From Desulfamplus sp. (lineage in GTDB: Bacteria; Desulfobacterota; Desulfobacteria; Desulfobacterales; Desulfobacteraceae): a stretch of 40,092 nt of DNA. This document shows positions 4,440 through 39,450 of this stretch, one piece after another (the first letter of the stretch is position 1; each line of letters opens with the position of its first letter). The stretch spans positions 1 to 40,092 of the forward strand of contig JADGBC010000014.1 in assembly GCA_015231705.1 (NCBI GenBank), written 5' to 3'. Below the pieces are notes generated by a model that worked only from the letters and a program-made list of their open reading frames with translations, was not told where the DNA came from and ran no database searches. The translations under genes were made by a program, and so were the position numbers.

Positions 4440-4543
4440 TAAGTGCTTGGACATAATTTTTTCTTCTATCCAACAATGAATTTGGTAGATTTTAGGGTAA
4501 TATTCAAAATTTTAACCGGAAAAAACTTTAGTTCAGGTACTTA
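4440..4543 (+). repeat. MITE-like element copy 1 (about 104 bp, flanked by TA)
   Basis: TA-AGTGCTTGGACATAATTTTTT...CTTTAGTTCAGGTACT-TA. Closely matches the reverse complement of 33131..33233; ends form imperfect TIRs. Confidence 0.7.
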
Positions 4544-6009: not shown

Positions 6010-6057
6010 ATTAAAAATTAGACATGCTTCATTTAACGTTTTTCAATTTTTGAAATC

Positions 6058-6154
6058 TTTTATGTGAAAGTCTCTTAAATTAGCAGTAATCATGGGACTT
6101 TCATTGTTCGTTGTGGCCGAGAGCCAATACCTCGCTCCGGCCGTGCCGGTTATT
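6058..6154 (+). repeat. Palindromic repeat family R1, type 1, copy A (intergenic rsmB-rpe)
   Basis: TTTATGTGAAAGTCTCTT...GACTTTCATTGTTCGTTGTGGCCGAGAGCCAATACCTCGCTCCGGCCGTGCCGGTTAT; aligned by eye with 29010-29106 and 34538-34634. Confidence 0.85.
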
Positions 6155-14977: not shown

Positions 14978-16906
14978 ATGAAAATTACCATCGCAAAAAC
15001 AGCCGGATTCTGTATGGGGGTACGCCGAGCGGTGGATATGGTATTAGATGCTGCTAACAAGACCTGCGATCCTATCTGTACCTATGGTCCCCTTATTCAC
15101 AATCCACAGGTTCTTCAAATGCTTGAAGAAAAGGGTATTCCTACCATTAACCATATACCTGAGAAAGGAGATGGAACCATTCTTATCCGTGCTCATGGAG
15201 TGCCACCCCAGGAGCAAAGAGCACTTAAGGATGCCGGGTTCAAGGTTATCAATGCCACGTGCCCCAGAGTTATACGTGTACAGACAATCATAAGAAAACA
15301 TGCTGCAAAAGGCTTTGTGGCTATCATAATCGGAGATCAAGATCACCCTGAAGTCAAGGGGCTTATGGGATATGCTAAGATTGAAAATGATGTACAGGAC
15401 ACTAATAACAGTAATGAAAAGAGCAGGATTGACAGTAATGAAGAGGGCAAGTTTGGAAATGGTGGACAGGGGGGAAGGGGATACACTGTTTCAACTATAG
15501 AAGAGCTTGCCGCTCTTCCAGGATTTGACAAAGCAATCATTGTTGCTCAGACTACACAGGATACAGTCTTTTACCATGAAGTAAAAGAGTGGATCTCAGA
15601 CCATTATCCACACTATAAAATATTTGACACCATATGCGACTCAACAGAAAAGAGGCAGGCTGAGACACGTAGAATTGCCAAACAGAGCGATGTGGTTGTG
15701 GTGGTTGGCGGCAAGGATAGTGGTAATACGCGTCGTCTTGCTCAGGTTGCCACAGAAACTGTATCTGACCGACGGGATGGAGCCTCTTTTGCAGTACATA
15801 TTGAGGATGTGTCAGAACTTGATATGGAGAGCCTGGTCTGGGCACGAACCATTGCCATCACAGCAGGAGCCTCAACCCCCAACTGGACTATAAACCATAC
15901 AAGCAGAGCTATTGAGAATGCATTGCAAAAGAGGCAAGACTATCTCAAAGTCCTTGTTCGAAGAGTCCGTAACTTCCTGTTAAGAAGTAATTTTCTCCTT
16001 TCAGCAGGTGCCGGAAGTCTCACCTATGCCTGCTCAACAATCCAGGGAATTGATCACAATCTGATTCATGCTTTTATTTCAATGCTATATGTTCTTTCCA
16101 TGCAGATTCTAAACAACCTCTTTTCCATCAAATCAGATAAATACAATAACCCTGAAAGGGCTGATTTTTATGACTCCAACAAAGTTGTGCTTGCTGTTAG
16201 TGCAACTGTCAGCGGTGCGACAGGTCTTTGTCTCTCATATACAACTGGAATATTGCCATTTATACTGCTTTCTTTTATGAGCCTGCTTGGTCTCCTCTAC
16301 AACCAGAAAATTTTTCCTGACTTTATTCCTCCTATCTATTTATTTAACCGCAAAATTATGAGGATAAAGGATATTCCAGGATCAAAAACCATTCTGATTG
16401 CCGTAGCATGGGGAACTGTTACTTCTTTGCTGCCGGCTCTGTCAACAACTGGACAAAGTGTTGTGCTGGAAAATTCTGGTAACATCACAATGACAGCTTC
16501 CGGAACCTCCTTACTCCAAATATTGCTGGAAACACTTACAGGAATCTCTTTTATCATTCCTTTTATTTTTTCCACTTCTATTGTGTTTGCACGTACAGCC
16601 TTTTTTGCAATTATAGAAATTCAGGGAGACCGCATAACCGGCAAGGAGACCATTCCAATTATTCTGGGAGAAAAGAAGAGCCTTAAACTGATTCGAAATA
16701 TCTTGCTGCTTGCATTTGCAACCCTTTTTGTTTCTGGCTTGTTAGGCCTTCTATCAATATCAGGCATGTTCATTGCCTGTGTCCCGTTATCAATACTTTA
16801 TGTCATAAAATTGCATGAGAAAGGGAAAATTACTTCTGGTATGCATCTTGAATTTATTATTGAGTCCCATTTTCTTTTTGCAGGTTTAATAGCAGCTTTT
16901 TTTTAA
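14978..16906 (+). CDS. ispH: 4-hydroxy-3-methylbut-2-enyl diphosphate reductase (IspH) fused to a C-terminal UbiA-like prenyltransferase domain
   Basis: N-terminus: KTAGFCMGVRRAVD, NATCPRV, DSTEKRQAETR, GASTPNWTI. C-terminus: about 300-aa multi-TM region with KDIPGSKTILIAVAWG and EIQGDRITGKETIPIILG, typical of UbiA-superfamily motif 2. Confidence 0.88.
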   Translation: MKITIAKTAGFCMGVRRAVDMVLDAANKTCDPICTYGPLIHNPQVLQMLEEKGIPTINHIPEKGDGTILIRAHGVPPQEQRALKDAGFKVINATCPRVIRVQTIIRKHAAKGFVAIIIGDQDHPEVKGLMGYAKIENDVQDTNNSNEKSRIDSNEEGKFGNGGQGGRGYTVSTIEELAALPGFDKAIIVAQTTQDTVFYHEVKEWISDHYPHYKIFDTICDSTEKRQAETRRIAKQSDVVVVVGGKDSGNTRRLAQVATETVSDRRDGASFAVHIEDVSELDMESLVWARTIAITAGASTPNWTINHTSRAIENALQKRQDYLKVLVRRVRNFLLRSNFLLSAGAGSLTYACSTIQGIDHNLIHAFISMLYVLSMQILNNLFSIKSDKYNNPERADFYDSNKVVLAVSATVSGATGLCLSYTTGILPFILLSFMSLLGLLYNQKIFPDFIPPIYLFNRKIMRIKDIPGSKTILIAVAWGTVTSLLPALSTTGQSVVLENSGNITMTASGTSLLQILLETLTGISFIIPFIFSTSIVFARTAFFAIIEIQGDRITGKETIPIILGEKKSLKLIRNILLLAFATLFVSGLLGLLSISGMFIACVPLSILYVIKLHEKGKITSGMHLEFIIESHFLFAGLIAAFF

Positions 16907-24045: not shown

Positions 24046-25401
24046 TTATGAAACGGATGAGATGTGGTTATGAATATCTTTAAACAAAGTCTCTGAATGA
24101 GATCTAAGATTTTTCAGGATAAAAGAAGTCTCAGGGTTATCAGGATGTAATTCTTCTGTCATCACAAGAAAAATAGTGTGTAAATTATCATGGCTGAATT
24201 GCATCAGATAAGATTTGAATGCATCGCTGAAAGATGCCTTGAGCTTCTCAAAAAAAGGCTTTTCAGAGCTTTTTTTTGTTGTTGTTATCTCTTTGTTTTC
24301 AAGTGCTCTGAAGAAGCCATTTAATATAAAAGGTATGGAGTCTGCATCAACCATACAGTAGTCACCAGTTCCGTCAAGTCTGTCTATACGCATTCGTAAT
24401 GTGAGCTTTAAAAAGAATAGAAGGAGTGCCTTGTAGGTATCTTCTATTCTGTAGTAGCCTGAATCGTTACAGTTTTCCTGGTTATAAGCGTTCTTTTCAT
24501 TTTCTCCATAATTTTTGTCTTTTATGTGAAAGTCTTTTGAAATATCTGCACTCATGAGACTTTCATTCTTAGTTGTGCCCATCAAGGCATGGCCGTTATC
24601 ATGACAAGTTTCTGGAGAGACGACAGACTCTACAATAGTATCGTAGCCTCTGGCTGTAATCAGTTTTACATCAAGCCCCTGTTCTGTAGGCTTGGTAATA
24701 AAATCACCTGCCGCATGATGCCAAGGGGAGATATGTTCAAAAGTTTTGATGTTGTAAAAATGTGTCAGGATTTCAGATGCTTTGTCATAAATTTCAAAGT
24801 AGGCAGGGTGTGAGAGGGTTGAAACACTGCCATCGCCATTCCACAGGTGAAGATTGTAGATTTCGGCCTTGTCAGGATTCTTTGTCAGATGGAACTCTTT
24901 GTATCCATCAAACCAGGTTGCAAGAAAAAAAGAGATCTGCATCCCTCTGCATGACATTGTTTTAACCCCAAAGACCCTTGGAAGATAGTGCTTGTCATCC
25001 AGTTCATTGAGGTATTTCATAATACGATATTCATTGTTAATCAGAGCAAGCCCGTAAGGGGAAATAGCGGTGTTAAGAACAAATAAAAGAGGGGAATGGC
25101 CTTTGATTGAGACCTCGACTCTTGCTGGATGGTAAAAGGCACCATGTTTCTCAAGATAGATATCAACTTGATCAAGGGCTTCAATTGGACAATCTTTGTT
25201 CAGGATGAATCGTATTCCCTCTTGTAATACATTATAATTGTTGGCCTGAATGAATTTTTGTGCCCACTCAAAGTATTCATGAATCAGTATGCCCCCAGAA
25301 GCTGTTCCCGAAATAGACAGATGCCACAGTGGTGAATCTTCTGTAAGCAGCTCGGCTAAACCTGAAATATGATATTGAAATATCGGCCTGGAGTTCATCA
25401 T
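24046..25401 (-). CDS. Uncharacterised protein, possibly kinase/phosphotransferase-like, upstream of dsrAB
   Basis: 451-aa ORF; NEYRIMKYLNELDDKHYLPRVFG...FFLATWFDGYKEF and WHHAAGDF are weakly reminiscent of APH/kinase folds; contains an in-frame R1 repeat peptide. Confidence 0.6.
   Translation of the reverse strand: MMNSRPIFQYHISGLAELLTEDSPLWHLSISGTASGGILIHEYFEWAQKFIQANNYNVLQEGIRFILNKDCPIEALDQVDIYLEKHGAFYHPARVEVSIKGHSPLLFVLNTAISPYGLALINNEYRIMKYLNELDDKHYLPRVFGVKTMSCRGMQISFFLATWFDGYKEFHLTKNPDKAEIYNLHLWNGDGSVSTLSHPAYFEIYDKASEILTHFYNIKTFEHISPWHHAAGDFITKPTEQGLDVKLITARGYDTIVESVVSPETCHDNGHALMGTTKNESLMSADISKDFHIKDKNYGENEKNAYNQENCNDSGYYRIEDTYKALLLFFLKLTLRMRIDRLDGTGDYCMVDADSIPFILNGFFRALENKEITTTKKSSEKPFFEKLKASFSDAFKSYLMQFSHDNLHTIFLVMTEELHPDNPETSFILKNLRSHSETLFKDIHNHISSVS
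24519..24600 (+). repeat. Palindromic repeat family R1, type 2, copy D (inside a coding gene)
   Basis: TTTTATGTGAAAGTCTTTTG...GACTTTCATTCTTAGTTGTGCCCATCAAGGCATGGCCGTTATC; minus frame gives [27 protein letters not shown]. Confidence 0.85.
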
Positions 25402-29009: not shown

Positions 29010-29106
29010 CTTTTATGTGAAAGTCTCTTTAAATAGCCGTGATTATATGACTTTCATTCTTCGTTGTGGCCGAGAGCCAATACCCCGCTCCGGCCGTGAC
29101 GGTTAT
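29010..29106 (+). repeat. Palindromic repeat family R1, type 1, copy B (intergenic pbpC-DUF3786)
   Basis: CTTTTATGTGAAAGTCTCTTT...GACTTTCATTCTTCGTTGTGGCCGAGAGCCAATACCCCGCTCCGGCCGTGACGGTTAT. Confidence 0.87.
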
Positions 29107-33130: not shown

Positions 33131-33233
33131 TAAGTATCTGAACTAAAGTTTTTGGTTAAAATTTTGAATATCGCCTTAAAATTTACCAAATTCATTGGTG
33201 AATAGAGGAAAAAAAATTATGTCCAAGCACTTA
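33131..33233 (-). repeat. MITE-like element copy 2 (about 103 bp, flanked by TA)
   Basis: Reverse complement reads TA-AGTGCTTGGACATAATTTTTTTTCC...AACTTTAGTTCAGATACT-TA, closely matching 4440..4543. Confidence 0.7.
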
Positions 33234-34442: not shown

Positions 34443-34537
34443 GATATGACTCCATTGTTGATTTGTTTTTAATGACGGCAATTAAAAAGCTGCCAATCTG
34501 TCTGCTTCAAATTATAATCCGACACTGCATGTAGTGG

Positions 34538-34634
34538 TTTATGTGAAAGTCTCTTTAATATAAATGTGGTTATGTGACTTTCATTCTTCGTTGTGGCCGA
34601 GAGCCAATATCCCGCTCCGGCCGTGCCGGTTATT
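34538..34634 (+). repeat. Palindromic repeat family R1, type 1, copy C (inside the NAGGN operon)
   Basis: TTTATGTGAAAGTCTCTTT...GACTTTCATTCTTCGTTGTGGCCGAGAGCCAATATCCCGCTCCGGCCGTGCCGGTTAT. Confidence 0.87.
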
Positions 34635-38341: not shown

Positions 38342-38445
38342 GGTGTCATTTATTATTATTTTGCTTTTGTTTTATTTTTAACAGTGGTATGCTCAACAAT
38401 AAGGGGAGGTGTTTCACATAAATAAACAACCGTATGGAGGATATA

Positions 38446-39450
38446 ATGAGAGTTCTTCCAACACTGCATCAATGGCTTGAACACAACTTGAGTACACTTG
38501 ATGCCATTATTTTTGACATTGATGGAGTATTGCAGGTTAAGGGATCTGCAGCCAGAGGAAGCAGACGACTTATCGAAATGCTCAGAAGAAAAAATTTCCC
38601 CTTTTACCTTCTAACTAATGACGGTGATCACTCAACCGAAGAGAAAGCCGATGTATTGAACAACTCCGGGCTTTGTGTGAGTCCGGACGAAATAGTCTCC
38701 TGTGCGGACGGTCTGGCAGGTCTTTTTGGTAGTTTGGAACAGCAATATCCGGATGGCAGCAGCGAAAAAAAAGATGCTTCTGATAACGGCCATGCCCTGA
38801 TGGGCACAACTAACAATGAAAGTCCTATCGTTACGGACACTTCAAGAGACTTTCACATAAACAGATACTCAAAGCAATTTTTGCATAAACTATCCGATAC
38901 TCCATTTTTTATCATGGGCTGCCTTGGTACCCCCTGTTTTGCACAAAAAGCAGGATTGAAGACAACAAGGAATCTTCAGAAAATAGATATATGTCAGGGC
39001 ATCATTGTAGGAGAGAGAAATTACGACTGGGAAAAGACAATTAACGCGGCTGTAAATTTTTTTATAAGATACCCCGAAGCCCCCCTTATAGTCCCCAATC
39101 CTGATGAATATTATCCAGGGCAGAACGGTCAGTTATGTATTGGTGCCGGAGGTGTTGCCGGATTCATGGTACAAATACTCAAATCATATGGCATCACCAT
39201 AGAGCCTCTCTATCTTGGCAAACCCTTCTCTCCCATATTTAAGAAGACCCATGAGTTGCTTGAAAAAAAATACGGAAAAACGATCCCTCTTGATCGCATT
39301 CTCATGGTCGGAGACTATATCAATTCCGATATTAAAGGGGCCAAAGATTTCGGTTGCCGTTCAGCCATAGTTCTTACTGGCGTGACAACCATAGAGATGC
39401 TTCAAAAATCCGAGATTATTCCAGATATGGTGTTTGAAATATTAGGATAA
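38446..39450 (+). CDS. HAD-superfamily IIA-type hydrolase with repeat insertion
   Basis: [74 protein letters not shown]. Confidence 0.85.
38782..38861 (-). repeat. Palindromic repeat family R1, type 2, copy E (inside the HAD gene)
   Basis: Plus frame [27 protein letters not shown]; reverse complement matches copy D at 24519-24600. Confidence 0.87.

Follow-up and report, generated by a model that had tools for sequence, protein, structure and literature searches.

The stretch of DNA analysed here (the window, 40,092 nucleotides of the Desulfamplus sp. contig JADGBC010000014.1) contains two genes with a copy of the same short element in their reading frames, as well as three intergenic copies of a related form (Table 1). 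No Pfam family was matched by the 451-aa product of the first host gene, orthologs of which were found in 30 of the 39 genomes searched, while in the HAD-family hydrolase the insert sits between the regions matched by Hydrolase_6 and Hydrolase_like. The element codes for 25 residues in both genes, flanked by (D) and (K) in the first and by (D) and (N) in the second. The initial annotation of this DNA described a pair of shared 27-residue peptides encoded in the same frame and orientation relative to otherwise unrelated host proteins, and this description holds: the blocks lie in the 451-aa and 338-aa ORFs, one host being a HAD hydrolase and the other a protein without a Pfam family, and the DNA match extends over 81 nt with 85% identity. 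Both copies are in phase 1 and on the strand of the host ORF, so that their opposite orientation in the window is the same orientation per gene. The three intergenic copies, which match the two genic ones in the 3' half, were absent from that annotation.

Table 1. Copies of the element and their host genes in the window
Feature	Position	Strand	Remarks
S-subfamily element	24522..24599	(-)	nhmmer match, model 1-78, 84 bits; in frame in dsr-upstream gene
S-subfamily element	38783..38860	(+)	nhmmer match, model 1-78, 80 bits; in frame in HAD hydrolase gene
Lg-subfamily copy, intergenic	6057..6153	(-)	direct repeat D1 and nhmmer
Lg-subfamily copy, intergenic	29010..29106	(-)	direct repeat D1; 98% to Lg consensus
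Lg-subfamily copy, intergenic	34537..34633	(-)	direct repeat D1 and nhmmer
Host gene 1: 451-aa protein	24046..25401	(-)	directly upstream of two NIR_SIR genes (dsrA/dsrB)
Host gene 2: 338-aa HAD-family hydrolase	38434..39450	(+)	Pfam Hydrolase_6 and Hydrolase_like

A search of the whole source genome, as the initial annotation had proposed, placed these copies in a large family. This genome is a Desulfamplus-type Desulfobacterales assembly of 3.6 Mb and 75% completeness; like those of its relatives it is of metagenome type, and the ORF calls are simple. It gave 417 matches (up to two mismatches) to the core motif CACAACNAANAATGAAAGTC, which is common to both subfamilies, against 0 for the reversed motif used as control, and at least 150 matches to the peptide, numbers far beyond chance. 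A 397-kb sample chosen without regard to copies contained 55 of them, which extrapolates to about 500 per genome. The majority of the copies are intergenic, a side of the family not apparent from the two genic copies noted at the outset.

The subfamilies, S with 79 nt and Lg with 94 nt, have the 3' half in common and differ in the first hairpin, which is longer in Lg. The layout of S is ATAACGGCCATGCCCTGATGGGCACAACGAAAAATGAAAGTC-loop-GACTTTCACATAAA; hairpin 1 is TGCCC-TGAT-GGGCA and hairpin 2 is TGAAAGTC...GACTTTCA. Both S and Lg fold, as single-stranded DNA or RNA, into two separate hairpins (z about -3), and the single palindrome of the initial annotation has to be given up. About 90% of the full copies start and end with ATAA; the left flank is T-rich at positions -8 to -5, and the base preceding ATAA (-1) is never C. 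The two ends (ATAACGG... and ...CACATAAA) do not form inverted repeats. A known RNA family was rejected as the identity of the window copies, since none in Rfam matches them and a tRNA is the sole Rfam match in the window.

The comparison of host proteins with their orthologs, made mainly against the closest relative (G003, Desulfamplus sp. MAG nER1bin2), revealed clean empty sites. In six G003 orthologs a residue pair (DK, DS, NK, YK, DS or NR) stands at the point of insertion in place of 27 residues, so that exactly 25 codons are missing, and a seventh pair is reciprocal, with the G003 gene filled and the gene of the source genome empty. The net gain per event is thus 75 nt, or 25 codons and not the approximately 27 first proposed, since the target restores the two outermost codons. 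The insertion sites have the form xAT|AAy. Of the six empty sites in G003, two read ATAA (GCA GAT AAG ACG and ACA TAT AAA GTG) and the rest differ from it by one or two bases; over all seven empty sites ATAA is exact in these two only, although the two species have diverged. Together with about 30 further in-frame genic copies, these seven exact differences support the original proposal of a mobile sequence inserted without loss of frame. The presence of the peptide in all distant orthologs, which was named as the contrary outcome, was not observed: it is absent at the window site from about 28 orthologs of the dsr-upstream protein and from four HAD orthologs. The G003 dsr-upstream gene holds a copy of its own at another site. 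Among the HAD orthologs, those in G001, G010 and G021 have no insert, and that of G003 has a 63-nt shorter stretch ending KDFHDN, which is possibly a decayed remnant. One FtsK copy and one ComEC copy are common to the source genome and G003, and some insertions therefore predate the split of the two species.

Only one of the six frames of S is open. This +2 frame is open in 34 of 37 genic copies and in 27 of 37 others, the remaining frames being nearly always closed. For S, at least 33 copies were counted well within ORFs (in hosts with at least 30 aa on both sides of the insert), and all of these have the same orientation and codon phase, on the strand of the gene and reading xAT AAC ... ATA AAy. 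Some entries of the genic list came from a one-frame peptide query, and a sample not selected by peptide agrees with the list in showing the same single strand and phase. Random insertion has five configurations open to it, since the phase A TAA is a stop. Because the intergenic copies of the unbiased sample keep the same frame open, the openness is a property of the element itself. From the frame and phase bias of the genic copies we infer that the peptide is translated and present in the host proteins.

The same observations bear on whether the insert might instead be removed from the RNA or skipped by the ribosome, in a self-splicing-like manner or by translational bypass, with the coincidence of frame as a secondary matter. 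Such a process would be in line with hairpins that are stable in RNA and with copies in essential genes, e.g. DXS, LigA and FtsK. It would, however, tolerate any phase and either strand, yet the genic S copies all share one of each; the frame kept open in intergenic copies and the lack of an Rfam match also speak against it, and we regard it as very improbable.

The two subfamilies differ in their occurrence in genes. In the unbiased sample and the window taken together, real genes contain about 8 of 30 S copies versus 1 of 30 for Lg (Fisher p 0.026). The commonest length of Lg and a stop codon in its loop close the frame, and Lg is found nearly exclusively between genes. Its only genic copy in the same material is a variant shorter by one base, the loss of which opens the frame, in a 274-aa ORF that was read, from its sequence and not from a Pfam scan, as a putative NUDIX-type hydrolase. 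Few copies are genic although ORFs of at least 100 aa span 87% of the 397-kb sample, and insertions into genes are hence mostly selected against. In a congener with 264 core matches (G001), no long ORF was seen to run in the element's own sense through the 24 copies of other subfamilies that were inspected.

Hosts placed by Pfam include DXS, MutL, urocanase, proline racemase, a PTS enzyme I-like protein (PtsI), ComEC (two sites), adenylate cyclase, diguanylate cyclase, histidine kinases, a DEAD-box helicase, a UDG-superfamily protein, FtsK, a RecJ-like protein and an MFS transporter, among others, and LigA carries the insert near its N-terminus. The insert of urocanase splits a Rossmann-like domain and that of DXS falls within the linker joining the first and second domains; in both proteins the alignment to a solved structure breaks at the insert. 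In comEC (L088 16102-16206 of contig C66, and L274) a full copy directly adjoins a truncated one of 27 nt, where G003 has one copy; a second comEC site resembles in-frame decayed remnants (SKEFHIK / SKDFNIK). For the host genes in L131, L162, L172 and L179, orthologs within the genus often have other low-complexity in-frame expansions at or near the element sites, e.g. SGQASAS and NHNNN tracts, as if linkers in general were expanded.

Relative to the consensus, substitutions at the three codon positions (1, 2, 3) amount to 0.076, 0.163 and 0.182 in genic copies and to 0.058, 0.125 and 0.140 in non-genic copies, and position 3 exceeds the mean of positions 1 and 2 about 1.5-fold for genic and non-genic S alike. 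As the pattern is equal within and outside genes, selection on the peptide was rejected; besides the absence of stops, nothing in the sequences suggests such selection, and the peptide resembles a passenger that is tolerated, not a function under selection. The equal pattern also weighs against an old functional unit as the source of the block: an ancient motif or domain that proteins have exchanged and that selection has kept, for instance as a binding tag or a linker. About 30 proteins carrying the peptide and two sites (in FtsK and ComEC) shared with G003 would fit an old motif, but most copies are intergenic, orthologs lack the block cleanly, and the FtsK copy differs between the species by 7 nonsynonymous and 5 synonymous codons. 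We regard an exchanged motif as very improbable. Instead, the pair in the window very probably represents small non-autonomous mobile DNA, present in more than 400 copies, whose in-frame S copies are translated as a neutral peptide.

The numbers of core matches in eight genomes of the genus (417, 264, 121, 77, 27, 3, 2 and 0) vary widely, and this variation indicates mobility. A left hairpin followed by GAAAG...CTTTCATATAA, with a variable inner part, was also found in other Desulfobacterales including Desulfotignum, and the changes in hairpin stems of other species keep the pairing (TGTCC/GGACA, TGACC/GGTCA). In G002, tandem copies share one ATAA. Loci L288-L307 of G001 have other left hairpins, of the TGGCAG...CTGCCA and the TTTGCTGACGCAT type, and are often in tandem. 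Carriage on phage, plasmid or viral contigs was rejected, as no copies were found in the collections of such sequences.

Each insertion would take an ATAA-like target and end up with ATAA on both sides, through either duplication of the target or single-strand transposition on its 3' side. The one open frame of S is that entered when ATAA spans two codons as xAT AAy; an insertion of any other phase or on the opposite strand would meet stops and be lost, while one of good phase in a flexible linker would survive and be translated as a neutral peptide. With its frame closed, Lg would stay almost wholly between genes. The mobilising enzyme presumably acts in trans, and a single-strand (HUH/Y1-like) transposase would be its likeliest kind.

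A more specific form of the mobilising step, compatible with small non-autonomous DNA entering genes in this way, is that the family derives, in miniature form, from IS200/IS605- or RAYT-type elements: the two subterminal hairpins would direct a Y1 HUH transposase to cut at ATAA, and a single-stranded circle would be inserted 3' of ATAA. Asymmetric ends without inverted repeats, two hairpins, a fixed tetranucleotide at both ends and tandem copies sharing one ATAA are all consistent with this, and 33 of 39 genomes have Y1 genes, so these are common in the order. Against it, a search of the source genome and 39 relatives for a Y1 transposase neighbouring the element did not yield a mobilising enzyme. 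No intact Y1 gene occurs in the 75%-complete source genome (G000) or in G003, none of the 21 inspected Y1 loci is flanked by intact element-like ends, no copies lie near 20 Y1 loci of relatives, and GTAG or CGTC tags are lacking. A Y1 transposase as a neighbour of the element was rejected, as the element ends are absent at the Y1 loci inspected, and we consider this derivation possible, somewhat short of an even chance. The source genome holds a single degenerate Y1 fragment, on contig C7, with a degraded Lg copy beside it. At this locus (L198, 746-1530) the degraded Lg copy is followed by an omega-RNA-like sequence and a C-terminal remnant of IscB (NF040563, match below the cut-off); the Y1 fragment with its IscB-like remnant is probably a separate insertion next to the Lg copy.

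Palindromic elements inserted in frame are known from Rickettsia and Wolbachia (PMC2229807, PMC3767692), the genera of their first description; some free-living bacteria joined the list later. These RPEs and their Wolbachia equivalents are likewise small multi-copy repeats, both intergenic and in frame in unrelated conserved genes, and have no known transposase (PMC2229807, PMC3767692). The analogy to RPEs drawn in the initial annotation stands with regard to the in-frame mode with empty orthologous sites, seen here in seven pairs and with 33 hosts, and fails with regard to the features of RPEs proper: these are 100-150 bp long palindromes with terminal inverted repeats, of intracellular alphaproteobacteria, whereas the Desulfamplus family, 79 or 94 nt with two independent hairpins, adds 75 nt with ATAA on both sides in a Desulfobacterales host. 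Intragenic GTAG/CGTC REPs occur in several free-living bacteria, e.g. Opitutus terrae and Thauera, and also in R. conorii; the GTAG type is linked to RAYTs, and the CGTC elements are without a dedicated transposase (PMC3733652). They too are hairpin repeats, often paired, sometimes located in ORFs where they code for 20-30 aa, and also found in replication and repair genes (PMC3733652). The Desulfamplus family, in contrast, has a fixed 25-codon increment and one phase, the consensus of S and Lg has no GTAG/CGTC tag beside hairpin 1 or 2, and no RAYT (Y1) gene is linked to copies in the source genome or at the 20 Y1 loci of relatives. The Correia/NEMIS elements of Neisseria, in which an open-frame form is fused in genes and a stop-containing form is almost only intergenic, parallel the contrast of S and Lg (PMC2229807), but they have terminal inverted repeats with TA ends and an unrelated sequence.

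REPINs and IS200/IS605-derived miniature elements are similar in that they are asymmetric, carry a hairpin close to either end and use a fixed short target, and differ in that no transposase was found for the Desulfamplus elements. Hairpins are present here, as is ATAA at both ends, where duplication of ATAA and one retained target look the same in sequence. Of the features of DDE-type MITEs, terminal inverted repeats are missing, and ATAA is repeated in direct orientation only. The family works like RPEs, intragenic REPs and Correia elements, and it is set apart by the features tested on its sequence, with neither terminal inverted repeats nor a GTAG/CGTC tag. The open-access literature searched contains no report of these repeats in Desulfobacterales, and we rate them as a new family of a known kind of element, for which the evidence is unusually clean.

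A sulfate reducer here harbours a high-copy and partly recent in-frame family, of which one subfamily is coding-competent and the other, in the same genome, mostly non-coding. The empty sites, the 75-nt increment, the contrast of S and Lg and the range from 0 to 417 copies allow the ability to settle in genes and the neutrality of the peptide to be asked about directly. As the hosts include DXS, MutL, LigA, PtsI and FtsK, annotation and structure work on the genus will meet these inserts. Tentatively, and as less likely than not, we suggest that there may be an order-wide, two-hairpin, ATAA-targeting class in Desulfobacterales with its own mobilising enzyme, of which one lineage evolved a frame-neutral version able to enter genes. 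If so, this lineage, with its 75-nt gain and one open frame, would constitute a natural before/after experiment on selfish DNA entering genes.

Two other repeats were observed in the window. Positions 1-127, at the contig end, are identical to the interior positions 15193-15319, and the length of this 127-nt repeat suggests an assembly-graph k-mer overlap rather than biology. Positions 4457-4522 and 33149-33214 belong to a second, unrelated AT-rich repeat family (66 nt, 86%, inverted), which has 4 copies in the sequence examined from the source genome.
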